From contig JAPOIY010000025.1 in NCBI GenBank assembly GCA_029978705.1, positions 1-36,742 of the forward strand: a DNA stretch of 36,742 nucleotides, written 5' to 3'. Below, in pieces: positions 1,846 to 18,975 of the stretch (positions are counted from its first letter, which is position 1; every line of letters starts with the position of its first letter). The notes under the pieces were generated by a model. The model had not been told where the DNA came from. It searched no databases and saw only the letters and a list, made by a program, of their open reading frames with translations. The translations under genes were made by a program, and so were the position numbers. Origin of the DNA: Actinomycetota bacterium. Lineage in GTDB: Bacteria > Actinomycetota > Actinomycetes > S36-B12 > GCA-2699445.

Positions 1846-4224
1846 ATGTCGCTGGCAAGGAGCGGACGGGCGCTGGTCATTCCGGAGCGAAGTGACGGCA
1901 ATTATGAGGTTAGTCCGACACTGCCGGCGGAATTGATGGGAGCTTTATGCGAAGGCCGCGTGGTGACTCTCTTCGCCCGCTACAGCGGCAATGGCGGCAA
2001 GGATGCGCGCAAAGCGTGCATCCTGGATGCGGGCCAGTTGGTCGATGACCTCGCCACGTTCGGGTTGGATGTACGTCATCTCATGCCCCCGCAGGTGGAC
2101 ATGGATGCCTGGCTGAAAGCTGCCCCCGCCCAGCAGTCCAGCGACGCGACCACGTCGCGCCCCTTCTCGAACCGTTTCGTCGATGTGTGGCTGTGCCCCC
2201 AAATCCTGCTGGTCTTGTCCACGGGAACCGGCAGCAAACTCGCCGCCGAGGACCTGCAGCAGCCGTTCACCAGCTACCTCACCGACACGGTCAGACGGCT
2301 CAAGCCGGTACTGCTGTATGGGAAACGGTGGGACCGATTGGGACGACGCTCCTGGGCGTTGGGGGGAGCGATCGACGCTATGAAGGCGAATCGCCCGGCA
2401 TTCGTCGGAGACGAGACAGGGATCAAGATCCTGGACGACATGGCCGAGTTCTTCGCCTTCTTGTCCAGCAACCGTGCCGAAGGCTTCGCCGCGGCGATTC
2501 CGCTGCAGACGCGCCGAGGCATGCGCAGCCGAACCGGTACGCAAATGGTGGACGGACGCGTCGCCTACGCACTGCCCGCAGCCCTACCACCCGGACTGGC
2601 TCGCCTGCGACTCGTCGGTGGTGGAGTCGGCGGCAGCGGTGAAGTGATCATGTGCCTGGAACACCCCGACTGCCTGCCCGCTGCGGAGCACGTCTCGGTG
2701 GGGTATCCGCAGGTCCTGGATCCGGTCACGGGACGAGTGCAAGACCAGGTCGCCAACGTGCGGTGGGCACTGGAACGGCTCGCCGATCCCACCTGGACCT
2801 TGGACCAGATCGGTCAGGGGTTGATCGCCCGTCGATTCAGTCACACGAAGATCCGCGAACTGTGGGGCCTCGCGGCCACCGCTCGACCGCAGCCCAAGCA
2901 GATGGCCCAGAAGAAGTACCGGCGGCCCGCACAAAACGTCGTCGGGCCGATTATCAGCAATCTCGACGTGTATGAGACCGGAGTGCTGACGCGCACTCTG
3001 GGCGTGACCGGCATGCCACCGGTGATCGTGACCAACGTCCTACCGGTCGACGGGCGTCCGTGGGCGTCCCCGGAGGTATTCGCCAAGATCCGCGCGCGCC
3101 TGGCTGACACCAAGACCCGCTGGGCATCGCGCCAGACGCTGCCGCTGGCTGGGCTGTCACTGCGCGTGGATGGTCGCGACTGCTTTCTGCGCACCTACAG
3201 CGGGGCCACCCGGAAGGGATACGGGTCGAACGGGGAGCCGCGGTACACCATCAATGACGCCGAGTCGGGGCACACCGCCGGGTTCGGTGTGCTGCTCAGC
3301 CACCGTGATCTGGCGCACCTGGTTGCTGAAGCCCTGGACGCCGCGGTGGCCAGCGGTGCCCCGCTTCCTCCACTTCAGGTCAGCGGTGATCACGGCCGCA
3401 TGATCGAACAGACCGAGCAGGCGCTCAGCGGGCTTCGCGCCCAAGTGCGCGATGCCCGGAGCCGGGCGGATCTGTTGTACGAGCGGGTCAACGATGCACA
3501 TCTGAACGGTGCCATGCTGCACCGGATCCAAACCGACTACAACGACCTGGTCCAGTGCGTGGTGCCGAGCCTGGAACGCGACGTGGCCCGTCACGAGGAA
3601 CGCCTCCAGCAGATGATCGCCGACCACCAGCAGAGCGCGGGAACGCCGATGGAACGACTCAGTGCATTGGTGCGCTGCCTCGCCGACCCCCTCACCGCCC
3701 ATGACCGGATCGAAGTCCAGGCCCTGATCAGCCGCCTCGATCTCACGCTGGAGAGATTCTCCCAAGCGAACTGCAACGGATGGATCGCCTACGCAGGCAT
3801 CGAACTGGCGCTGCGCGACGACGAGGGTCACCTCCACGCCGTGCGCCACCAGGGACGTTTGCTCATCAACGGCGCCAAGACCTTCCACCAGATGGTGCAA
3901 CGCACCCGCGACCGACTGCGGTTCGGCCGGCGAGAACCGGCCACAGACATCGCTCGTCGTTATCGAGGACCCATCGCTGAGGCGCTCGGGTTGCGCGGCA
4001 CCGAGAAGTTGATCCTGGCCATCGAGGATCCACGGCTGGCTCGGCTGGCGTTCCTCCTGCACGAGCAGCGACACCACGGGCTTACCGCTGCCGACGCGAG
4101 GTCGGCGGTGGCCGCTGAGACCGGCGAAGCCCCGGCCCTGCTCGCCCGGCTAGATGTAACCGGCCACCACGTTCATGACAGGCGGCTGATGGGCGGTCCG
4201 CCGATGCTGTGGTGGTGTCGGTGA
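1846..4224 (+). CDS. Divergent large serine recombinase, 3' end replaced by IS sequence
   Basis: ATG with GAGAGGAG 5 nt upstream. The translation is 792 residues. I identify it as a serine recombinase by the catalytic motif R45-Y46-S47 (the 'YxRxS' nucleophile) and by D163-R164-L-G-R167, which matches the conserved DRLGR of the resolvase/invertase fold. These are followed by R223-R224-G at the end of the catalytic domain, a recombinase-like DNA-binding region (about 300-430), a long coiled coil (about 515-590) and a final helical segment typical of the large serine class. Two features are unusual. There is a 40-residue N-terminal extension, and about 117 residues separate the serine from the DRLGR arginine, against about 58 in gamma-delta resolvase. 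Residues 1-770 are native. The last 22 are read from the IS left end. The native C-terminal 101 residues lie beyond the IS (5245-5550). The truncated protein could still be made, but it lacks the Cys4 motif. Confidence 0.75.
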   Translation: MSLARSGRALVIPERSDGNYEVSPTLPAELMGALCEGRVVTLFARYSGNGGKDARKACILDAGQLVDDLATFGLDVRHLMPPQVDMDAWLKAAPAQQSSDATTSRPFSNRFVDVWLCPQILLVLSTGTGSKLAAEDLQQPFTSYLTDTVRRLKPVLLYGKRWDRLGRRSWALGGAIDAMKANRPAFVGDETGIKILDDMAEFFAFLSSNRAEGFAAAIPLQTRRGMRSRTGTQMVDGRVAYALPAALPPGLARLRLVGGGVGGSGEVIMCLEHPDCLPAAEHVSVGYPQVLDPVTGRVQDQVANVRWALERLADPTWTLDQIGQGLIARRFSHTKIRELWGLAATARPQPKQMAQKKYRRPAQNVVGPIISNLDVYETGVLTRTLGVTGMPPVIVTNVLPVDGRPWASPEVFAKIRARLADTKTRWASRQTLPLAGLSLRVDGRDCFLRTYSGATRKGYGSNGEPRYTINDAESGHTAGFGVLLSHRDLAHLVAEALDAAVASGAPLPPLQVSGDHGRMIEQTEQALSGLRAQVRDARSRADLLYERVNDAHLNGAMLHRIQTDYNDLVQCVVPSLERDVARHEERLQQMIADHQQSAGTPMERLSALVRCLADPLTAHDRIEVQALISRLDLTLERFSQANCNGWIAYAGIELALRDDEGHLHAVRHQGRLLINGAKTFHQMVQRTRDRLRFGRREPATDIARRYRGPIAEALGLRGTEKLILAIEDPRLARLAFLLHEQRHHGLTAADARSAVAAETGEAPALLARLDVTGHHVHDRRLMGGPPMLWWCR
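4149..4154. repeat. Target-site duplication GCTAGA, left copy
   Basis: GCTAGA lies directly outside the left terminal inverted repeat of the IS and is repeated exactly at 5238-5243. Confidence 0.92.
4155..4179 (+). repeat. IS left terminal inverted repeat
   Basis: Reads TGTAACCGGCCACCACGTTC and on to TGAC. It matches the reverse complement of 5213-5237 at 21 of 25 bases; the mismatches are CC/GG and CA/GG pairs. It lies just beyond the transposase 3' end and slightly overlaps its last codons. Confidence 0.9.
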
Positions 4225-5135
4225 TTGTTGTAGAAGTCGAGCCACGGGTCTAGCGCTCGTGCTCGCTGCTGATTGCTGGTGAAGGGTTGGCGGTAGGCCC
4301 ACTCGGTTTGCAGGGTGCGGTTGAGGCGCTCGACTTTGCCGTTCTGCCAGGGACAGTGGGGTTTGATGAAGATCTGGCGCGCGCCGATCGCGGCGACAGC
4401 ATCGATGAATGCTGCGGAGTTGCGGTAGGCGAAGGCGTTGTCGGTCATGACTTCGCGGATCGGGATGCCGTGGCCGGCGAACCAGGTGGCAGCGCGCAGC
4501 AGGAACGCCGCGCAGGTTGTGCCCTTCTCATCGGGCAGGATTTCTGCATAGGCCAGACGGGTGTGGTCATCGACCATGGCGTGGACGTAGTCGAATCCGA
4601 TCCGGTGCTTCTTGTCGCGTTGATGCCCGCTGGCTGCGCGGCCGTGGACGCGCCAGCCGCCGCCGTCGGGGATGCGGCCGATCTTCTTGACGTCGATGTG
4701 CACCAGCTCTCCGGGGGTCTGCCGTTCGTAGCGGTGCGTGGTGGCACGGCTGGACCGGATCACCTCGCCGGTGATCGGGTCACACGCCGCCAGGGGTGGC
4801 ACGCCGTGACGAGCCAGGACACGTGACACCGTCCGCGGAGCGACCCCGGCCCGCCGTGCGATCTCGTCACGACCCACGCGCAGTTCGCTGCGCAGCCGCA
4901 TGATGCGACCCGCCACAGCGTCACTGGTGCGATTGGCGACCCGGTGGGGGCGAGACGACCGGTCGGTCAGGCCCGCCCATCCATCACGGTCAAACCGACG
5001 AACCCAGCGGTGCGCGCACTGCCGCGACACCCCCATCTCCTTGGCCACATGCGACACCGGTCGCCCGTGGAATCGAATCCGTTCCACGAGGAGTCGACGA
5101 CCATGAACCGTCAAACGAGCGTTAGCGTGAACCAC
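4173..5135 (-). CDS. IS481-family transposase
   Basis: A DDE transposase of 320 residues, the usual size for the family, acting on the IS ends. The N-terminus 'VVHANARLTVHGRRLL' is typical of IS481 transposases. A helix-turn-helix DNA-binding region follows ('VSRQCAHRWVRRF' and 'GVAPRTVSRVLARHGV'), then an integrase-core RNase H fold. The three acidic residues are visible: D in 'LVHIDVKKI', D in 'VMTDNAFAYR' and E in 'NGKVERLNRTLQ'. I chose GTG at 5135 because AGGAGG (5147-5142) sits 6 nt upstream. An in-frame GTG at 5174 would add 13 residues and has no ribosome-binding site. The stop falls inside the left terminal repeat. The gene looks intact. Its ribosome-binding site lies in a hairpin (5137-5190). 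Confidence 0.95.
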   Translation of the reverse strand: MVHANARLTVHGRRLLVERIRFHGRPVSHVAKEMGVSRQCAHRWVRRFDRDGWAGLTDRSSRPHRVANRTSDAVAGRIMRLRSELRVGRDEIARRAGVAPRTVSRVLARHGVPPLAACDPITGEVIRSSRATTHRYERQTPGELVHIDVKKIGRIPDGGGWRVHGRAASGHQRDKKHRIGFDYVHAMVDDHTRLAYAEILPDEKGTTCAAFLLRAATWFAGHGIPIREVMTDNAFAYRNSAAFIDAVAAIGARQIFIKPHCPWQNGKVERLNRTLQTEWAYRQPFTSNQQRARALDPWLDFYNNHRHHHSIGGPPISRLS

Positions 5136-5136
5136 A

Positions 5137-5190
5137 GAGGACCTCCTGGGCAGTAGTGCGTAGACACCACTCACCGCACTGGAGGTCCTC
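5137..5190 (-). promoter_or_regulatory. Hairpin overlapping the transposase ribosome-binding site
   Basis: Perfect 10-bp arms GAGGACCTCC (5137-5146) and GGAGGTCCTC (5181-5190) are joined by a second pairing, AGTGCG (5155-5160) with CGCACT (5175-5180). In the transposase mRNA the 3' arm contains the GGAGG of the Shine-Dalgarno sequence and ends one base before the GTG start. Folding would hide the ribosome-binding site. By analogy with fold-back inhibition in IS10 and IS50, it could block transposase translation from outside transcripts. Confidence 0.7.
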
Positions 5191-5191
5191 C

Positions 5192-5220
5192 CTCATATCA
5201 AGACGCCGCGCCGTCACCAA
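5192..5220 (-). promoter_or_regulatory. Candidate transposase promoter in the IS right end
   Basis: On the minus strand TTGGTG (5220-5215, inside the terminal repeat) is followed after 17 bases by TATGAG (5197-5192). Spacing and partial consensus fit a sigma-70-type promoter. The predicted transcript would begin inside the 5' arm of the leader hairpin, so that hairpin would be shorter than on read-through mRNA. Confidence 0.45.
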
Positions 5221-5237
5221 CGTCCTGGCCGGTTACA
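5213..5237 (-). repeat. IS right terminal inverted repeat
   Basis: On the minus strand it reads TGTAACCGGCCAGGACGTTG and on to TGAC, mirroring the left end at 4155-4179. The candidate -35 box of the transposase promoter lies inside it. Confidence 0.9.
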
Positions 5238-5243
5238 GCTAGA
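5238..5243. repeat. Target-site duplication GCTAGA, right copy
   Basis: Identical to 4149-4154 and directly adjacent to the right terminal inverted repeat. Deleting 4155-5243 rejoins the recombinase gene in frame. Confidence 0.92.
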
Positions 5244-5550
5244 TGGGCTGTACGCGCCTGACGGGGTGGCCCGAAGCCGCTGGTGGCGGCAACGCCTGAC
5301 CTGGCGTGATCGACCTCCGGTGCCGTGTCGGCATTGCGGACATCCCGCAGTGTTCGGCACTCTCCTGGCCGAGATCGACACCGGGGTATGCCCGGCGTGC
5401 CGCCGCGACGCCGCCGGAGTGGCATGGGACGTGTCGTACGACCAGCATCTCGTCGAACAAACGGCGACCGGGCCGCGCACCGTGACTGGCGAGCCACCGG
5501 TGTGGCGTCGGCCCCGATACCGCACCTACACCGCGTGGCCGTCACGGTAA
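5238..5550 (+). pseudogene. Severed C-terminal part of the serine recombinase
   Basis: After removal of the IS and one GCTAGA copy, residue 770 continues directly into 5245-5550 without a frameshift, giving an 871-residue protein ending at TAA 5548-5550. The severed 101 residues begin 'GLYAPDGVARSRWWRQ' and contain C798-x2-C801 ('CRHC') and C819-x2-C822 ('CPAC') in reconstructed numbering, probably a zinc ribbon. The segment 'WRDRPPVPCRHC' followed later by 'CPACRRDAAG' resembles the end of other actinobacterial large serine recombinases. A GTG at 5266 could in principle start a 94-residue fragment, but I see no ribosome-binding site, so I treat it as untranslated debris. Confidence 0.85.
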
Positions 5551-5641: not shown

Positions 5642-7054
5642 CTAGTGGGTGGGATCCGTTCGTCGTGTTGGTTCGATTTGACGGCCGGGCTCGCGGGAGA
5701 CCAGCGGGTGATCGACTCCGAAGATCGCCGCCACCGCGGCGGCGTTTTCGATCAGGGTCGCGCCGGTATAGATGCTGGTGGTGTCGCTGGGCTGCCGGTG
5801 GCCCAGATGCCGCGCCGCGACCGCGTGACCGGCGACGCGGTCCAGCATCGTTCCGGTGGTGTGGCGGAAGTCGTGCCAACGCAAGAAGAAGTCGTCGGCC
5901 CACGGCAAGTACCGCTTGACCCGCTCACGAAGATTGTCCAACGACCGGCAGGTCACCGGCCGGGTGGTGCGCGCCACGAAGTAGCCGTCGTCATCGAACT
6001 CGTCGACCGGGGCGCGATACAGCAGCGGATCGATGGCGGTGACACACGGGATACCCGCGCGGCGCTGCGCCTCGGGTGCCTCGGCCGGTGCTGCTCTGCG
6101 CGGACCGCGATCCATCACATGCCGATGCAGCGCGGCCATCAAGGTCGGTGTGACGGGGACGACGTGCTCAGGACCGTCGCCCTTCTGTTCTTTCACCCTC
6201 ACGGTGCACTCCGTGGCATTCACGAAGCCGTAGCGGCTGTTGAGGACCCCGCCGCGCCGCGCCGCCGTCTCCGCGATGTAGACGACGATCAGACCGTCGC
6301 CGTCGGGGTCTTGTCCGGTTGTGATGGCGGTCTGGTAGATCTCCTCCGCCTGGGGAGCGGACAACGCTCGCGGCTCGCGCTCCTTTCGCTTGGGTTTACG
6401 CAGGCGTTCCCTGGCGGGGTTGCGGGTGGCGAATCCGTCGGCGATGGCGCGGTCGTACAGCCACCGGATCGCTCCCACGTAGTTCTCCGACGCGCCGCGC
6501 CCGTCGTGGCCCCCCGGTGTGCGGCCGCGGTGCACCCGGCGTCGGTCGCGGTCACGGTTGACGGCGAACGCGCGCACGCGAGCCCAGTACTGGCATTGCT
6601 GGAGGTCGGCCAGCGACAATGCCGAGAACCCCAGGGTCCCGCGGCCGGTCCACCGCGAGGCGCACGCCCCGCCGCGGCCGGTGCACGACTCATGGTGCGG
6701 CTGCACCGCCACCTGGTCGCACGGTCGTCCGTGGTGCGCGCCGTCGGCGTCGACGTCGCACCCGCACGCGCACGGGCAGCCGCCGAGGTCATCACACGCC
6801 GGGCAGTCGCACTCGCAGACTTTGTGGTCGCCGTCGGCGAGCAATCGCAGCCCGGCGGTGTAGGTGTCGCCGGAGCCCGGGCTGCTTTGCCGAAGTGCGG
6901 ACAGTTGCTGATCGATGTAATCCGCCAGTATCGGGCCGTGCCCCGCCTGTAAGGAGTGCTGCTGCAGGTCGTCGATGGACAACCCGACCGCCGTCAGCAA
7001 CGCCTGCGCGGCCTGCAGCGCCGCGGTTTGAGGGTCAAGAGGCTGGGTGGTCAT
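5642..7054 (-). CDS. Tyrosine recombinase/integrase with Cys-rich insertion
   Basis: 470 residues. ATG at 7054 is preceded by GGGAGAA at a good distance. The C-terminal catalytic domain shows R266 ('TAARRGG'), H394-x2-R397 ('WHDFRHTTGT'), H419 ('HLGHR') and the nucleophile Y429 ('TTSIYTGA'). A lysine in 'VRVKEQKGD' may complete the set. The usual Glu after the first Arg (RxGE) is Gly here. The N-terminal half is odd: residues 80-131 hold eleven cysteines (C80, C82, C84, C87, C93, C95, C97, C99, C112, C124, C131), interrupting what looks like the core-binding domain and suggesting bound zinc. The start overlaps the preceding AbrB-like gene by four bases (ATGA), so the two are probably translated together. 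It lies one gene away from tRNA-Leu, a common integrase target, and converges on the serine recombinase remnant 91 bp away. Confidence 0.88.
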   Translation of the reverse strand: MTTQPLDPQTAALQAAQALLTAVGLSIDDLQQHSLQAGHGPILADYIDQQLSALRQSSPGSGDTYTAGLRLLADGDHKVCECDCPACDDLGGCPCACGCDVDADGAHHGRPCDQVAVQPHHESCTGRGGACASRWTGRGTLGFSALSLADLQQCQYWARVRAFAVNRDRDRRRVHRGRTPGGHDGRGASENYVGAIRWLYDRAIADGFATRNPARERLRKPKRKEREPRALSAPQAEEIYQTAITTGQDPDGDGLIVVYIAETAARRGGVLNSRYGFVNATECTVRVKEQKGDGPEHVVPVTPTLMAALHRHVMDRGPRRAAPAEAPEAQRRAGIPCVTAIDPLLYRAPVDEFDDDGYFVARTTRPVTCRSLDNLRERVKRYLPWADDFFLRWHDFRHTTGTMLDRVAGHAVAARHLGHRQPSDTTSIYTGATLIENAAAVAAIFGVDHPLVSREPGRQIEPTRRTDPTH

Positions 7055-7887
7055 GCGATTCTCCCTGTTCGATGGGTGTCCAACGCCACCACGTCGGCGG
7101 CGTGGATCGTGGGGGCTGCGGCAGCGGCGATGAGCGGGGCGAACACCGCGTCCAGACAGGAAGCCGCGATCACCGCCCACGTGCCGTCGGGGCCGGGGGC
7201 CACGATGATGTCGCTGGGGGCGTCGATCCCAGCGCGGCGCCGCTGCGTGGCGGGCACACACAAACGCGTCCCGGTCATCCGTGCCGTCCCGGCGCGCGAC
7301 GCGTCTGAGGCAGCCGGGCTCAGCAGCAGCATCCCCGGGTGAACCGTGACGGTGAACACCGCGCCTCCCGCCGCAGCGATCTCCGGCACGGCGATCCGGC
7401 CCTTGTCGTCGCTGCGGCGCATCAGCCACGACGCGTGCGCCGCCTGCGGCGGGTGAACCACGGTGGCGCTGGCGGCGGCGTGCAGTTGGTGCAGCGGCGC
7501 GGGGCCGCTGGCGTGGCGGGCGGGGGACGCCGCAGGGTCGAGGGCGTCGCGGTTGTACCGCAGCGGCGGCGGCGCCGTGATCGGTGACACCGAGGAGCCC
7601 GTTGATGCCTGCTGGGGTTCGTGATCGGGCGCCGCGGTCGTGGGGGTTCCCCGGCGGGCGCGCGCGGCTCCCGGCAGGCGTGGGGGGCGTGAGTTCGGCA
7701 CGTCACCATTCATCGGCGGTGCCGTCTTTTCGTTTGCGGTTGCCGGTGGTGGCGCTGGCGGCGCACCGTCCGTGCCTGCGGAATCCCGCCGGTCACCGGG
7801 CGGTTCGGGCGCCAGCGGCGAGGGGGGATCACCCGCGGCGGGGCGGGGGGTGGTTAAGTGGGCGAAAAGGTGGGTGGGATCCCACAT
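7051..7887 (-). CDS. Protein with tandem AbrB/SpoVT-like segments, coupled to the integrase
   Basis: Up to 278 residues. The first 140 or so are Pro/Ala-rich and of low complexity. The C-terminal third contains two segments that resemble SpoVT/AbrB swapped-hairpin DNA-binding domains: 'DDKGRIAVPEIAAAGG' and, about 50 residues later, 'TRLCVPATQRRRAGID' followed by 'GTWAVIAASCLDAVF'. I infer a transcription factor or accessory DNA-binding protein for the element. The stop overlaps the integrase start (ATGA). The ATG at 7887 begins only 5 bases after the tRNA-Leu discriminator base and has no ribosome-binding site. Transcription could come from the tRNA promoter, or the true start may be internal (for example ATG at 7713). 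The frame is reliable; the N-terminus and the AbrB assignment are tentative. Confidence 0.6.
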   Translation of the reverse strand: MWDPTHLFAHLTTPRPAAGDPPSPLAPEPPGDRRDSAGTDGAPPAPPPATANEKTAPPMNGDVPNSRPPRLPGAARARRGTPTTAAPDHEPQQASTGSSVSPITAPPPLRYNRDALDPAASPARHASGPAPLHQLHAAASATVVHPPQAAHASWLMRRSDDKGRIAVPEIAAAGGAVFTVTVHPGMLLLSPAASDASRAGTARMTGTRLCVPATQRRRAGIDAPSDIIVAPGPDGTWAVIAASCLDAVFAPLIAAAAAPTIHAADVVALDTHRTGRIA

Positions 7888-7892
7888 CGTTG

Positions 7893-7978
7893 TGTCCGAG
7901 GGGGGATTTGAACCCCCACCCTCTTATACGAGGACTAGCACCTCAAGCTAGCGCGTCTGCCTATTCCGCCACCCGGAC
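7893..7978 (-). tRNA. tRNA-Leu, anticodon GAG
   Basis: 86 bases with the discriminator base. The acceptor stem GTCCGGG (5') pairs with CTCGGAC (3'), with one G-U pair. The anticodon stem CTAGC/GCTAG encloses the loop TTGAGGT, giving anticodon GAG, which reads CUC and CUU. The long variable arm (TCCTCGTATAAGAGG) is characteristic of tRNA-Leu, and the T-arm contains GGTTCAAATCC. CCA is not encoded. The 3' end points at the AbrB-like/integrase operon, so this tRNA is the likely integration site. I found no second copy of its 3' end in the window. Confidence 0.95.
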
Positions 7979-8134: not shown

Positions 8135-9460
8135 ATGTCGCAGCAGCAGAGCCTGAAAGCCGTGGAGGACGACGCTCTCGACATCCTGCGCCAACTGCTG
8201 CGCATCGACACCACCAACACCGGAGACCCCCGCACGACCGTCGGTGAGGCCGTGGCGGCCGAGTACGCCGAGGCCGTCCTGCGCGACGTCGGGTACGAGC
8301 CGGAACGCTTCGAGACCACGTCGGGCTCCCGGCAGGGCGTGTACCTGCGCATCCCCGGCAGCGACCCCGACCGCGGAGCCCTGCTCCTGCACGGCCACCT
8401 CGACGTGGTCCCCGCCATCGCCGACGAATGGTCGGTGCCCCCCTTCGAGGGCATCGAGGCCGATGGCATGATCTGGGGTCGCGGTGCCATCGACATGAAG
8501 GACATGGACGCCATGCTGCTGGCGCTGGTGCGGCACTGGGCGCGCACCGGGTGGGTGCCACCGCGCGACATCGTCCTCATCCTCACCCCCGACGAGGAAG
8601 CGGGCATGCGTCACGGCGCGCACTGGATCGTGACGAACCGCCCCGACATGCTGGCCGGCGTGACCGAAGCCGTCGGTGAGGTCGGCGGGTTCTCCATCAC
8701 CGCGCCCGACCAGCGCCGGCTCTACCTGATCCAGACCGGCGAGAAGGGCCTGGCGTGGCTGCGCCTCCGCGCCGCCGGGACCGTCGGTCACGGGTCGATG
8801 CTCAACGACGACAATGCCGTCACCACGCTGGCCGCCGCGATGGCCCGGGTGGGGGAGTACCGCTTCCCCGTCCGCATGACCCCGACCATGGCTGCCTGCG
8901 CCGACGAACTCGCCGCCGCCCTGGGGGTGGAGTTCGACCCCCGCGACCCCGAGCCGTTCCTCGCCGCCGTCGGCCCGATGGCCCGCGCCCTCGGCGCGAC
9001 CCTGGCCAACACCGCCAACCCCACCATGCTGACCGCCGGCTACAAGGCCAACGTGATCCCCGACGTCGCGGAGGGGACGATCGACGGGCGGTTCCTGCCC
9101 GGCTACGAAGACGAACTGCTCGCCACCCTCGACGACCTGCTCGGTCCCGGCATCACGCGGGAGTTCGTCAACCACGACATCGCCGTCGAGACCACCTTCG
9201 ACTGGGACACGATCACCGCCATGGCGGCCGCCCTGTCCGAACTGGATCCGGGAGCCCGAGCCATCCCCTACCTGATGAGCGGTGGAACGGACGCCAAGGC
9301 GTGGAGCACGCTGGGGATCCGGTGTTACGGGTTCGTCCCTCTACGCCTCCCGCCGGACCTCGACTTTCCCGCTCTGTTCCACGGCATCGACGAGCGGGTC
9401 CCCGTGGAGTCGGTGCGCTTCGGGGTGCGCGCGCTGCAGCGGTTCCTGGAACTCGCCTGA
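8135..9460 (+). CDS. M20-family metallopeptidase/deacylase
   Basis: 441 residues. A cytoplasmic di-zinc hydrolase of the M20/DapE/carboxypeptidase G2 type. The metal-site motifs are visible: H88-x-D90 in 'HGHLDVVPA', the bridging D120 in 'GRGAIDMKD', the catalytic pair E154-E155 in 'TPDEEAG', and the C-terminal metal-binding His in 'ALFHGIDERVP'. The middle segment 'AGTVGHGSMLNDDNAVTTL' marks the lid/dimerisation domain. I chose ATG 8135 because translation reading 'MSQQQSLKAVEDDALDILRQLLRIDT' gives the normal family N-terminus and a leaderless -10 box precedes it. The longer in-frame upstream reading would run from the tRNA. The substrate is unknown: M20 proteins of this size act on dipeptides, N-acyl amino acids or succinyl-diaminopimelate. 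It stands at the core side of the tRNA boundary. Confidence 0.92.
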   Translation: MSQQQSLKAVEDDALDILRQLLRIDTTNTGDPRTTVGEAVAAEYAEAVLRDVGYEPERFETTSGSRQGVYLRIPGSDPDRGALLLHGHLDVVPAIADEWSVPPFEGIEADGMIWGRGAIDMKDMDAMLLALVRHWARTGWVPPRDIVLILTPDEEAGMRHGAHWIVTNRPDMLAGVTEAVGEVGGFSITAPDQRRLYLIQTGEKGLAWLRLRAAGTVGHGSMLNDDNAVTTLAAAMARVGEYRFPVRMTPTMAACADELAAALGVEFDPRDPEPFLAAVGPMARALGATLANTANPTMLTAGYKANVIPDVAEGTIDGRFLPGYEDELLATLDDLLGPGITREFVNHDIAVETTFDWDTITAMAAALSELDPGARAIPYLMSGGTDAKAWSTLGIRCYGFVPLRLPPDLDFPALFHGIDERVPVESVRFGVRALQRFLELA

Positions 9461-9497
9461 CGGCGCGCCGTCCCCGGGTCGGTCACCCTGCGGTCGA

Positions 9498-9503
9498 TAC
9501 AGT
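9498..9503 (+). promoter_or_regulatory. Candidate -10 box (TACAGT) for the 9558 gene
   Basis: TACAGT lies about 55 bases before ATG 9558, between the peptidase stop and the membrane-protein gene. No obvious -35 box is seen. Confidence 0.35.
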
Positions 9504-9557
9504 CGTGCTGAACCGTGGGTCGCACCGGATCCGCGGCTGCGCGAACAAGGAGTGTGC

Positions 9558-10025
9558 ATGAGCCAGGGAGCACCCGTCAGCCGTCCGGGCGGCGTCACCC
9601 TCGTGGTGGTGCTGATGTGGATCGCCGGCATCCTCGAGATGATCGGCGGTCTGGTCTACCTCTGGTTGTCCTTCAACCCCAGCCAGGTCCCCTCGGTCCT
9701 GACCGGCCAGCAGGGACTGGCGCTGGTGGACGCCTCGGCGAACAGCGGCAACAGCCTCACGAGCATCCTGCTGATCCTCGGGATCTTCGGCATCGTGTTG
9801 GGCCTCATCACGGTCCTGCTGGCCTCGGCGCTGAAGAACGGCAGCAACGGGGTCCGGATCTTCATGACGATCATCATCGTGTTCCAGATCCTGGCCGACG
9901 CCTACGACATGGTGACGCTGCACGGCAACGCCATCTGGATGAACCTGCTGGGGATCCTGGTCTGGCTCATCGCACTGGGGCTGCTGTGGTCCTCCCGCGC
10001 GAGCGCTTTCTTCCACCAGCGCTGA
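9558..10025 (+). CDS. Small four-helix membrane protein
   Basis: 155 residues. ATG 9558 has AAGGAG 5 nt upstream. A short hydrophilic N-terminus is followed by four hydrophobic segments, roughly residues 14-35 ('TLVVVLMWIAGILEMIGGLVY'), 72-95 ('SILLILGIFGIVLGLITVLLA'), 102-125 and 128-148. This pattern occurs in many uncharacterised actinobacterial membrane proteins. I recognise no catalytic or transport motif. It follows the peptidase gene in the same direction but appears to have its own promoter (TACAGT at 9498). It converges on the aldo/keto reductase gene with a 16-bp gap. The gene call is secure; the function is unknown. Confidence 0.85.
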   Translation: MSQGAPVSRPGGVTLVVVLMWIAGILEMIGGLVYLWLSFNPSQVPSVLTGQQGLALVDASANSGNSLTSILLILGIFGIVLGLITVLLASALKNGSNGVRIFMTIIIVFQILADAYDMVTLHGNAIWMNLLGILVWLIALGLLWSSRASAFFHQR

Positions 10026-10041
10026 ACCGGCCCGGGTGGGA

Positions 10042-11028
10042 TCAGCGGGCGAGCTGGTTCCACCCGTGCTCGGGGTAGCCGAGCTCCGGCGCGGAGATGT
10101 CGTCCAGCGCCGTGCGGATCTCCGCCGGCAGTTCCAGGTCCTCCGACTCCATCGCGCCGCGCAACTGCTGTACGGTCCGGGCCCCGACCACGGGGGCCGT
10201 CACGCCCGGACGGTCGCGGACCCACGCCAGCGCCACCTCCAGCGGCGCCACGTCCAGGCCCTCCGCAGCGGTGTGTACGGCGTCGACGATGCGGCGCGAC
10301 CGCTCGTCCAGGTATTCCGCCACGAAGGACGAGAAGTGCGGGGAGGCGGCACGAGAGTCGCTGGGCGTTCCGTACCGGTACTTGCCCGTCAACACGCCCC
10401 GCCCGAGCGGCGACCAGGGCGTGATGCCCACGCCGAGCGCCTCGGCGGCCGGCACCACCTCCCGCTCGATCCCGCGCTGCACCAGCGAGTACTCCATCTG
10501 GGCCGCGGCCAGCAGCGACCGGCTGGGGACCGCGGACTGCCACGTGGCCGCCTGCGCCAACTGCCACCCCGAGTAGTTCGACACCCCCACGTACCGCACC
10601 TTGCCGGAGTGCACCGCGTCGTCCGCGGCGGCCAGGGTCTCGTCCAGGGGTGTGTGCGGGTCCCACGCGTGCAGATACCAGACATCGATGTAGTCGGTGC
10701 CCAGTCGACGCAGCGACCCGTCCAGCGACGACAACAGATGGCCGCGCGAGGCGTCGAACCGGCGCTTCGTACGCGGCCGGCTCACCGCCTTGGTGGCGAT
10801 GACCGTGCGGTCGCGCGTGTTCGTCTCGGCGAGCAGCATGCCGATGATCTCTTCGCTGGAACCGTCGGCATAGACGTCGGCGGTGTCGATGAACGTGCCG
10901 CCGCCGTCGAGGAAGGTCTTCCACTGGTCGCGGGCCTCGTGCTCGTCGGTGTCCCGCCCCCACGTCATCGTGCCGAGGGCGAGCCGGGAGACCCACAGAC
11001 CGGTCGCTCCGAGTGCTCGCTGCCGCAT
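10042..11028 (-). CDS. Aldo/keto reductase
   Basis: 328 residues. An NADPH-dependent oxidoreductase of the aldo/keto reductase superfamily, closest in appearance to the potassium-channel beta subunit/YghZ-like subgroup. The catalytic tetrad is present: D48 and Y53 ('FIDTADVYADG'), K80 ('VIATKAV') and H120 ('VWYLHAWD'). Further barrel motifs are 'VRYVGVSNYSGWQL', 'YSLVQRGIE' and, near the end, 'VTAPVVGARTVQQL', which binds the nucleotide. The start at 11028 is supported by TACCGT exactly 6 nt upstream, implying a leaderless mRNA. An upstream in-frame extension is Arg/Pro-rich and rejected. The natural substrate cannot be read from the sequence. It is divergent from the LLM oxidoreductase gene. 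Confidence 0.93.
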   Translation of the reverse strand: MRQRALGATGLWVSRLALGTMTWGRDTDEHEARDQWKTFLDGGGTFIDTADVYADGSSEEIIGMLLAETNTRDRTVIATKAVSRPRTKRRFDASRGHLLSSLDGSLRRLGTDYIDVWYLHAWDPHTPLDETLAAADDAVHSGKVRYVGVSNYSGWQLAQAATWQSAVPSRSLLAAAQMEYSLVQRGIEREVVPAAEALGVGITPWSPLGRGVLTGKYRYGTPSDSRAASPHFSSFVAEYLDERSRRIVDAVHTAAEGLDVAPLEVALAWVRDRPGVTAPVVGARTVQQLRGAMESEDLELPAEIRTALDDISAPELGYPEHGWNQLAR

Positions 11029-11034
11029 GGAGCG

Positions 11035-11040
11035 ACGGTA
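11035..11040 (-). promoter_or_regulatory. Leaderless -10 box (TACCGT) of the aldo/keto reductase gene
   Basis: On the minus strand TACCGT ends 6 nt before ATG 11028, so transcription should start at the start codon. Confidence 0.55.
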
Positions 11041-11108
11041 ACCCGAACCGGTGGCCCGGCAGAAGCGCCGCGCCGGGGTGCCTCGTTCCCCGCGCCCGGA
11101 GCCGGGAG

Positions 11109-11114
11109 TACGCT
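11109..11114 (+). promoter_or_regulatory. Candidate -10 box (TACGCT) for the LLM oxidoreductase-uppP operon
   Basis: TACGCT lies 36 bases before ATG 11151. It leaves room for a short leader containing GGGGAGG. Confidence 0.4.
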
Positions 11115-11150
11115 CACACGGGCGCCTCGGCGGCGCCTGGGGAGGCGACC

Positions 11151-12200
11151 ATGCGACTGGGCCTGAATCTCGGCTACTGGGGGATGGGCAACGACGCCGA
11201 GAATCTGGCTCTCGCGCGGGTGGCCGACGAACTCGGCTACTCCGTGGTGTGGGTGGCGGAGGCCTACGGGTCGGACGCACCGTCGGTCCTGAGCTGGATC
11301 GCCGCCCAGACGACGCAGATCGACATCGGCTCCGCGGTCTTCCAGATTCCCGGCCGCACTCCCGCCAACACGGCCATGACCGCCGCGACCCTCGACACCC
11401 TGTCCGGGGGCCGATTCCGGCTGGGGCTCGGGGTCTCGGGCCCGCAGGTGTCGGAGGGCTGGCACGGGGTGCGGTTCGCCAAACCGCTGACGCGCACCCG
11501 CGAATACACCGAGATCGTCAAGAAGGCGCTGCGCCGGGAACGGCTCACCTACGACGGCGAGTTCTTCACCCTGCCGCTGCCCGACGGCCCCGGCAAGGCC
11601 CTGACCCTGACCGTGCACCCGGTGCGGGAACACATCCCCATGTACCTGGCGGCGATCGGGCCCAAGAACCTGGAACTGGCCGGCGAACTGTTCGACGGCT
11701 GGCTGGCGATCTTCTACTCCCCGGAGTTCGCCCCGGAGCTGCTCGCGAGCATCGAGGCGGGCCGGCAGAAGGTGGGCCGCACGCTGGCCGGTTTCGATGT
11801 CGTGCCCACCGTGCCGGTGGTGATCGGGGACGATCTCGCCTCTTGCGCGGAGCCGCTGCGGGCCTACGCGTCGCTGTACATCGGGGGTATGGGCAGCCGC
11901 GAACAGAACTTCTACAACCGGCTGGCGGTCCGGATGGGCTACGACCAGGCGGCGCAGGAGGTCCAGGACCGTTACCTGGAACGCGACTACGCGGGCGCCG
12001 GGGCCGCGGTGCCGATGGACTTCATCGACAACACGTCACTGATCGGGCCTCCGGAACGGATCCGGGATCGTCTCGCGGCGTATGCCGAGTCGGGCGTCAC
12101 GACGTTGACGATCGCCTCCTACGCGGGGTCACTGGAGGAACGGGTCGCGACAATCCGGACCATGGCGGAACTTCTAGAGCAGTCGGGAGTCGGAGAATGA
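11151..12200 (+). CDS. LLM-class F420-dependent oxidoreductase
   Basis: 349 residues with a luciferase-like TIM barrel. Typical segments are '[11 protein letters not shown]', '[21 protein letters not shown]', '[21 protein letters not shown]', '[20 protein letters not shown]' and '[21 protein letters not shown]'. The family is known for reactions using coenzyme F420 or FMN. Use of F420 here is inferred from the family and the actinobacterial context, not from a decisive motif. ATG 11151 has GGGGAGG upstream. Its stop overlaps the uppP start (ATGA at 12197-12200), so the two are translationally coupled. A neighbouring LLM-family gene before uppP is a recurrent actinobacterial arrangement, but its role there is not established. 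The substrate is unknown. Confidence 0.9.
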
Positions 12201-15912: not shown

Positions 15913-16632
15913 GTGTCCGACTGGACCGTGCTCGGGCAGGTGTCCGACGCCTCCAACGCCACGCTGGTGGTCGAGGCGGGCGACCACCGCCTGGTCTACA
16001 AGCCCGTACGCGGCGAACGCCCACTGTGGGACTTCCCCGACGGCACGCTGGCCCGCCGCGAGGTAGCCGCCTACGAGATCTCCCGGCACCTCGGGTGGGA
16101 CGTTGTGCCGCCCACCCGATGGGTCGAGGACGGACCCTACGGCCCGGGCAGCGTGCAGGACTGGGTGGGCGACGATGTGGCCGCGGTCTCGGTCTTCCGG
16201 GAGGGCGCGGTCCCCGAGGGGTGGCTGCCCGTGCTGCAGGCTGTCGACGACGCCGACCGTCCGCTGGTGGTCGCACACGCCGACACCCCCCGCCTACGCC
16301 TGATCACCGTGTTCGACCTCGTGGTGAACAACGCCGACCGCAAGGGCGGCCATCTGCTGGGGGACGGGGACGCGGCGTGGGGTATCGACCACGGGCTGAG
16401 TTTCCACGCCGAACCCAAACTGCGGTCGGTGCTGTGGGGTTTCGTGGGCCGCCCCATCGACGACGGTGTCCTGGCCGATCTCGCCGACCGGCGCGACGAT
16501 CTGCCCGACCTCCTCGTCGGCCTGAGCGGCGCGGAGGGGGCCGCGCTGCGGGCGCGGGTGGACCGGGTCCTGGCCGATGGGGTGTTCCCGCCGCCCCGCG
16601 GCGGTCCGGTGATCCCGTGGCCGCCCATCTGA
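15913..16632 (+). CDS. SCO1664-family kinase-like protein
   Basis: 239 residues with a compact protein/lipid-kinase-like fold (PI3/4-kinase or HipA-like). '[18 protein letters not shown]' includes the probable ATP-binding Lys, and '[21 protein letters not shown]' the helix that positions it. '[16 protein letters not shown]' (D135, N140, D142) resembles a catalytic loop, and '[10 protein letters not shown]' (D159) a metal-binding motif. The sequence therefore predicts an active phosphotransferase, although the family has no established substrate. It starts at GTG 15913, one base after the DUF3090 stop, so translation is likely coupled. It is followed by mshC with its own -10 box. Arrangement with DUF3090 and mshC is common in actinobacteria. 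Confidence 0.92.
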
Positions 16633-17940: not shown

Positions 17941-18975
17941 TCAGTCCGACTTCTCGTCGTGGCCGCCGAACTCCTTGCGCATGGCCGACTGCACCTGGTT
18001 GGCGAACTTCGCGTTGCCCTGCGAGTCGAAGCGGGAGAACAGCGCCGACGTCAGCACCGGGGTGGGCACGCCTACGTCGATGGCCGCCTGGCTGGTCCAG
18101 CGGCCCTCGCCGGAGTCCGAGACCCGCCCGCTGAACTCCTCCAGGTCGGGCGACTTCTCCAGCGCCGCCGCCGTGAGGTCCAGCAGCCATGAGCCGATCA
18201 CCGAGCCGCGGCGCCACAACTCCGCCACATCCGTCGTGTTGATGTTGTACATGTAGTACTCGGGGTCCTCCAGGGGAGCCGTCTCGGCGTCCTGGTCCCG
18301 CGACTTCTCGCCGGCGTCGGCGTTGTGCAGGATGTTGAGGCCTTCGGCGTAGGCCGCCATGATCCCGTACTCGATGCCGTTGTGCACCATCTTCACGAAG
18401 TGCCCGGCTCCGCTCGGGCCGCAGTGCAGCCAGCCGCGCTCCGCCGGCGACGGCTCGCCGGAGCGGCCGGGGGTCCGCTCGACGTCCCCCAGCCCGGGGG
18501 CGATGGAGTCCCAGATCGGGGTCAGCCGGTCCACGGCCTTGTCGTCCCCGCCGATCATGAGGCAGTAGCCGCGGTCCAGGCCCCACACGCCGCCGCTGGT
18601 GCCGCAGTCCAGGTAGTGGATGCCGCGCTCGGCGAAGTGCTTCGAGCGGCGGATGTCGTCGTGGTAGCGCGAGTTGCCGCCGTCGATCATGGTGTCGTCG
18701 GCCTCGAGCAGAGCGCCGAGCTCCTCGGTGACCTTCTCCGTGATCTCGCCGGCGGGGACCATCACCCACGCGTTGCGCGGCTTGTCGAGTTTCGCGACGA
18801 AGTCCTCGAGCGAGTCGGCACCGATCGCGCCTTCCTTGACCAGTTCGGCCACGGCCTCGGGATTGTTGTCGAAGACGACGCACTCGTGGCCGTCCCGCTT
18901 GAGGCGGCGCACGAGGTTGGCCCCCATCCGTCCCAGTCCCACCATTCCCAGCTGCATGGGCTTATCGGTCGGCAC
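17941..18975 (-). CDS. gnd: 6-phosphogluconate dehydrogenase, decarboxylating (short form)
   Basis: 344 residues. Oxidises 6-phosphogluconate to ribulose 5-phosphate and CO2 in the pentose-phosphate pathway. The N-terminal Rossmann fold reads '[20 protein letters not shown]'. Substrate-binding and catalytic segments are '[13 protein letters not shown]', '[20 protein letters not shown]', '[19 protein letters not shown]' (catalytic Lys and the His-Asn pair) and '[18 protein letters not shown]'. The length matches the short GntZ-like type rather than the roughly 470-residue enzyme; in the short type NAD is often preferred, but I cannot read the coenzyme with certainty. I chose GTG 18975 because AAGGAG lies 6 nt upstream. 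The long open frame upstream is antisense to pgi and rejected. It is divergent from pgi. Confidence 0.95.

Follow-up and report, generated by a model that had tools for sequence, protein, structure and literature searches.

A divergent serine recombinase gene, probably of a tRNA-Leu island, split by an IS481-family insertion in an actinobacterial genome

The split gene and the inserted element

The window analyzed here, a stretch of 36,742 nucleotides from the draft genome of an Actinomycetota bacterium (contig JAPOIY010000025.1), harbors a gene in two parts, which homology, motifs and fold prediction assign to the serine recombinases. The 5′ part (1846..4154, plus strand) encodes residues 1–769 plus two bases of codon 770, and its product comprises a catalytic domain at about residues 24–250, a recombinase-domain-like region at about 300–430 and a predicted coiled-coil hairpin. 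The 3′ part (5244..5550, plus strand) completes codon 770 with its last base, adds 101 residues and the stop codon, and carries four cysteines, Cys798, Cys801, Cys819, and Cys822, exactly where the preliminary description had placed them.

Between the two parts lies an IS481-family insertion sequence of 1083 bp (4155..5237, minus strand). Its terminal inverted repeats begin TGTAACCGGCCA; 12 bp are identical between the two ends, and beyond that the match is partial. The element encodes an uninterrupted transposase of 333 aa (4173..5174, minus strand) with rve and HTH domains, which scores 303 bits against the NCBIfam IS481 model NF033577 (curated cut-off 224). The element is flanked by a perfect 6-bp target duplication, GCTAGA, whose left and right copies occupy 4149..4154 and 5238..5243, so that the ends and the duplication claimed before are confirmed to the base. 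The published target of IS481-family elements in actinobacteria is the 6-bp NCTAGN (PMC2516522; PMC6794481), to which GCTAGA conforms. Thus, the transposase score, the NCTAGN duplication and the TGT...ACA ends all place the element in this family. Indeed, ISLxc2 from Leifsonia xyli and ISRe46 from Rhodococcus equi resemble it in transposase family, size, TGT...ACA ends and NCTAGN duplication, and it differs from these elements in sequence only. On plasmids of Rhodococcus and Tessaracoccus, two related copies have ends that match it and are flanked by perfect duplications, ACTAGG and ACTAGC. The closest plasmid copy spanning the whole element has 68.6% identity, and the draft genome that the window comes from contains the element once.

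CTAG is a rare word in the window, with 15 occurrences seen against about 104 expected from base composition (about seven times rarer), and the joined gene has a single CTAG, namely at the insertion point. A recent insertion is plausible, because the duplication is perfect, the transposase is open and both halves of the gene are still open. The insertion event itself is routine, one more clean example of an IS481 element picking CTAG.

When the element and one copy of the repeat are removed, 1846–4154 joined to 5244–5550 forms a single open frame of 871 residues, with the junction inside the codon of residue 770. The interrupted gene of today runs 22 codons into the element and stops at 4224, giving 792 aa. 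It could be argued that the recombinase naturally ends near residue 770 and that the 101-codon frame after the element is unrelated, since the interrupted gene has a stop codon of its own and the split gene is known here from its sequence. Against this, an uninterrupted homologue of 868 aa from the same order (locus L030), 46% identical over 842 residues, crosses the junction to the same four-cysteine end, where 71 residues align with the severed tail at 49% identity. More distant homologues (25–31% identity) from the same order and from Nitriliruptoria genomes likewise continue beyond residue 770 with the same two-plus-two cysteine pattern, which ends all complete members, and no homologue stopping near residue 770 was seen. 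Separate profile matches to the 3′ part are found at 5323–5547 and 5272–5538, from profiles that themselves include the window sequence. A natural end near residue 770 therefore has almost no chance, and sequence comparison indicates that it is already refuted by the intact homologues. The ancestral 871-residue frame proposed earlier is thus borne out, because the uninterrupted homologue runs straight through the junction.

A remote relative of the serine recombinases

Family databases say little about the reconstructed protein: Pfam, NCBIfam and PHROG give no meaningful family match, and neither PF00239 nor the Pfam recombinase domain matches it. Across eight family members, PF00239 matches two, one of them above the cut-off; the relative at L031 passes the Pfam Resolvase model with 25.4 bits (cut-off 23.3). 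Evidence for a serine recombinase comes instead from several indirect lines. R45, S47, D163, R164, and R167, arranged as R-x-S followed by DRxxR, are invariant in all eight aligned, diverse members. We take them to be the equivalents of R8, S10, D67, R68, and R71 of gamma-delta resolvase; a literature search on the catalytic arginines found nothing. By hhalign, the catalytic region aligns with small and large serine recombinases at scores of 41–45, compared with a maximum of 22 for 60 column shuffles and 13 for the reversed alignment. In a sequence-profile search of the PDB, the best match is gamma-delta resolvase with DRxxR in register, at an E-value (0.16) that is not significant alone.

The predicted fold points the same way. 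For residues 24–205, serine integrases head the list (Z 7.2, rmsd 4.0, 127 residues aligned), and further serine recombinases follow lower down to gamma-delta resolvase. This Z value is below 8, in the background range for common folds, with macrodomain and KaiC entries close behind, and therefore the fold alone would not decide. Foldseek alone gives no significant match, and the match list of the full-length model is filled by the coiled coil. Taken together, the relatives, the motifs, the profile scores against shuffles and the predicted fold converge, if indirectly, on a divergent serine recombinase, so that the first assignment of the protein appears right but the relationship is remote.

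Several features separate the protein from the well-characterized systems. Large serine integrases such as TP901-1, phiC31, and the A118/LI integrase share with it the order R-x-S, DRxxR and a coiled-coil hairpin, which is predicted in the window protein at 514–597. TP901-1 aligns in register across the catalytic and the following region; an hhalign alignment of the catalytic plus middle region reaches TP901-1 residues 178–211, and the middle region alone is not significant. However, the window protein is far longer (871 aa, as against 485 aa in TP901-1), and it has no Pfam match. In the family alignment, the position of gamma-delta Arg45, in a register taken from profile alignments, is occupied by an invariant Gln (Q139), unlike in the large serine integrases. 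The domain order differs as well. In known large serine integrases, LI integrase for example, the recombinase domain is followed by a zinc ribbon into which the coiled coil is built (PMC3783163), whereas the family has no such ribbon and its conserved cysteines cluster only at 798–822, after the coiled coil, at the C-terminus. Compared with gamma-delta (Tn3-type) resolvase, the protein is predicted to have the same catalytic core fold and motif register, while the resolvase, at about 180 aa, is without the long C-terminal part. Because of the invariant Gln and the C-terminal cysteine cluster, we class the window protein within the serine recombinase superfamily, as a divergent member, and outside the canonical large serine integrases.

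The probable tRNA-Leu island and its tyrosine integrase

To the right of the split gene lies a tRNA-Leu (gag) gene (7892..7978, minus strand). Similarity to six relatives breaks exactly at 7892, the 3′ end of the tRNA; rightward of this point, DNA identity reaches 78% within the same genus. Since the breakpoint is the same in all relatives compared, the simplest reading of the sequence to its left is an island that inserted at the tRNA. A tyrosine integrase gene (5642..7054, minus strand) separates the split gene from the tRNA. Its 470-aa product has the R, HxxR, H, and Y motifs and matches the phrog_1 integrase profile (E 3.8e-23); its match to Pfam Phage_integrase stays below the cut-off. 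An open frame of up to 278 aa with no family match (7051..7887, minus strand) fills the space up to the tRNA, and its stop codon overlaps the integrase start (ATGA). At the far left of the window, positions 1–1173 encode a DUF7933-domain protein that also has a long Pro-Thr repeat and is cut by the contig start.

A second tRNA 3′-end fragment, as a mark of the far island end, was not found within the contig, which ends at base 1. A 13-bp direct repeat, GTGGGTGGGATCC, occurs at 5645–5657, inside the 3′ end of the integrase gene, and again at 7870–7882, some 10 bases short of where tRNA-Leu ends at its 3′ side. It may be an attachment core or a chance repeat; as an attachment site it is short and stops before the tRNA.

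Where an island with an open tyrosine integrase gene occupies a tRNA 3′ end, this integrase is the simplest candidate for moving it. It had been suggested that the insertion may have frozen the host element in place. This part of the preliminary description is not supported, since a distinct tyrosine integrase, catalytic motifs included, remains next to tRNA-Leu; most likely, the insertion inactivated an accessory or second recombinase. For immobilization, the serine recombinase would have to be the only working excision enzyme of the island. Its position could be read in this sense: in three islands (those of the window, L030, and L033) it lies beside a tyrosine integrase and convergent with it, in L030 and L033 likewise near a tRNA. 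Furthermore, the copies at L031 and L116 have no recognized tyrosine integrase in the stretches read, where part of the frames was scanned. Against immobilization stand the integrase between gene and tRNA, with its motifs in place, and the absence of the serine recombinase from most islands that carry an L030/L033-type integrase, and we regard it as quite improbable.

The same comparison weakens the idea of a fixed two-recombinase module. The L030/L033-type integrase has about 12 good matches in the order; the serine recombinase accompanies it in L030 and L033 alone, and the integrase of the window belongs to a different lineage. Because most such islands are without the serine recombinase and L031 and L116 are without a recognized tyrosine integrase, the pair is not obligatory. 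On elements that combine the two recombinase types, a literature search yielded no more than a review.

The reading we prefer, and hold to be very probable, is that of a tRNA-Leu island whose divergent large serine recombinase gene was split by an IS481-family element at its CTAG. The island at the 3′ end of tRNA-Leu(gag) would have carried the 871-residue gene beside the tyrosine integrase. Judging from invariance and fold, the catalytic serine S47, together with R45, R164, and R167, is expected to cleave and rejoin DNA in the manner of other serine recombinases. The recombinase-like region, the coiled-coil hairpin and the Cys4 end, probably zinc-binding, would position the protein on DNA. 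The element then entered the sole CTAG of the gene with duplication of GCTAGA, and 22 residues encoded by the element took the place of the last 101. The 792-aa product would keep the catalytic domain and is most likely inactive or altered, because the conserved Cys4 end is lost.

The family and its islands

Of some 1,300 scanned genomes, about nine have a member of the family, for which Pfam, NCBIfam, and PHROG contain no dedicated model; searches of plasmids, phage records, and viral contigs gave no relatives. Weak matches at L006 and L007 were rejected, since the frames at these loci resemble ordinary genes unrelated to the family.

Some of the other members show peculiar gene arrangements. 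At L031, an extra catalytic-domain copy of 227 aa (9308–9991) is located directly upstream of the full 873-aa gene, and its stop codon overlaps the start of that gene. In this copy the catalytic Ser is replaced by Ala and DRLSR is kept, and from its sequence it could be a catalytically dead partner. The same locus has a 50-bp exact copy of a tRNA-Phe 3′ end (16025–16074 and 17950–17999), about 1.9 kb from the intact tRNA gene, which suggests an island end. At L033, the family gene occupies two frames (8589–11881; 573 and 524 aa) with a 4-base overlap; its product may consist of two separate chains, or the copy may be frameshifted. The member at L116 (7118–9477) is split by an apparent frameshift. 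The splits at L033 and L116 are at other places than that of the window gene. At L034, two identical tRNA-Gln genes (1459–1531 and 6312–6384) flank about 4.8 kb, which include a reverse-transcriptase-like frame as well as a fragment of an IS3-like transposase.

The neighborhoods of the members suggest defence-rich islands. L031 has a cytosine methylase together with a possible restriction enzyme, L033 has AbiE genes, and the neighbors of the L116 member are a type III restriction system, an AAA_13 protein and a GmrSD-like gene. Such proximity is weak evidence of function. This adjacency of members to restriction or AbiE genes, together with the invariant Gln at the gamma-delta Arg45 position and the Ser-to-Ala copy at L031, would fit a protein that keeps the serine recombinase fold without recombining DNA, as a regulatory or defence-related derivative. 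We consider such a derivative unlikely, as R45, S47, D163, R164, and R167 are invariant in eight of eight members, which is expected if catalysis is kept.

Beyond the single gene, the members may form an undescribed class of large serine recombinases from actinobacterial islands, with a Gln-for-arginine active site, a C-terminal zinc end in place of the common zinc ribbon and perhaps a tyrosine integrase as partner in some tRNA islands, a proposal that we put forward tentatively and with somewhat more doubt than confidence. The recombinase family matters more than the insertion, because both its active site and its domain order set it apart from the large serine integrases known so far. Should it prove active, the range of serine integrases would become wider, and their chemistry would be seen to tolerate the loss of an active-site arginine.
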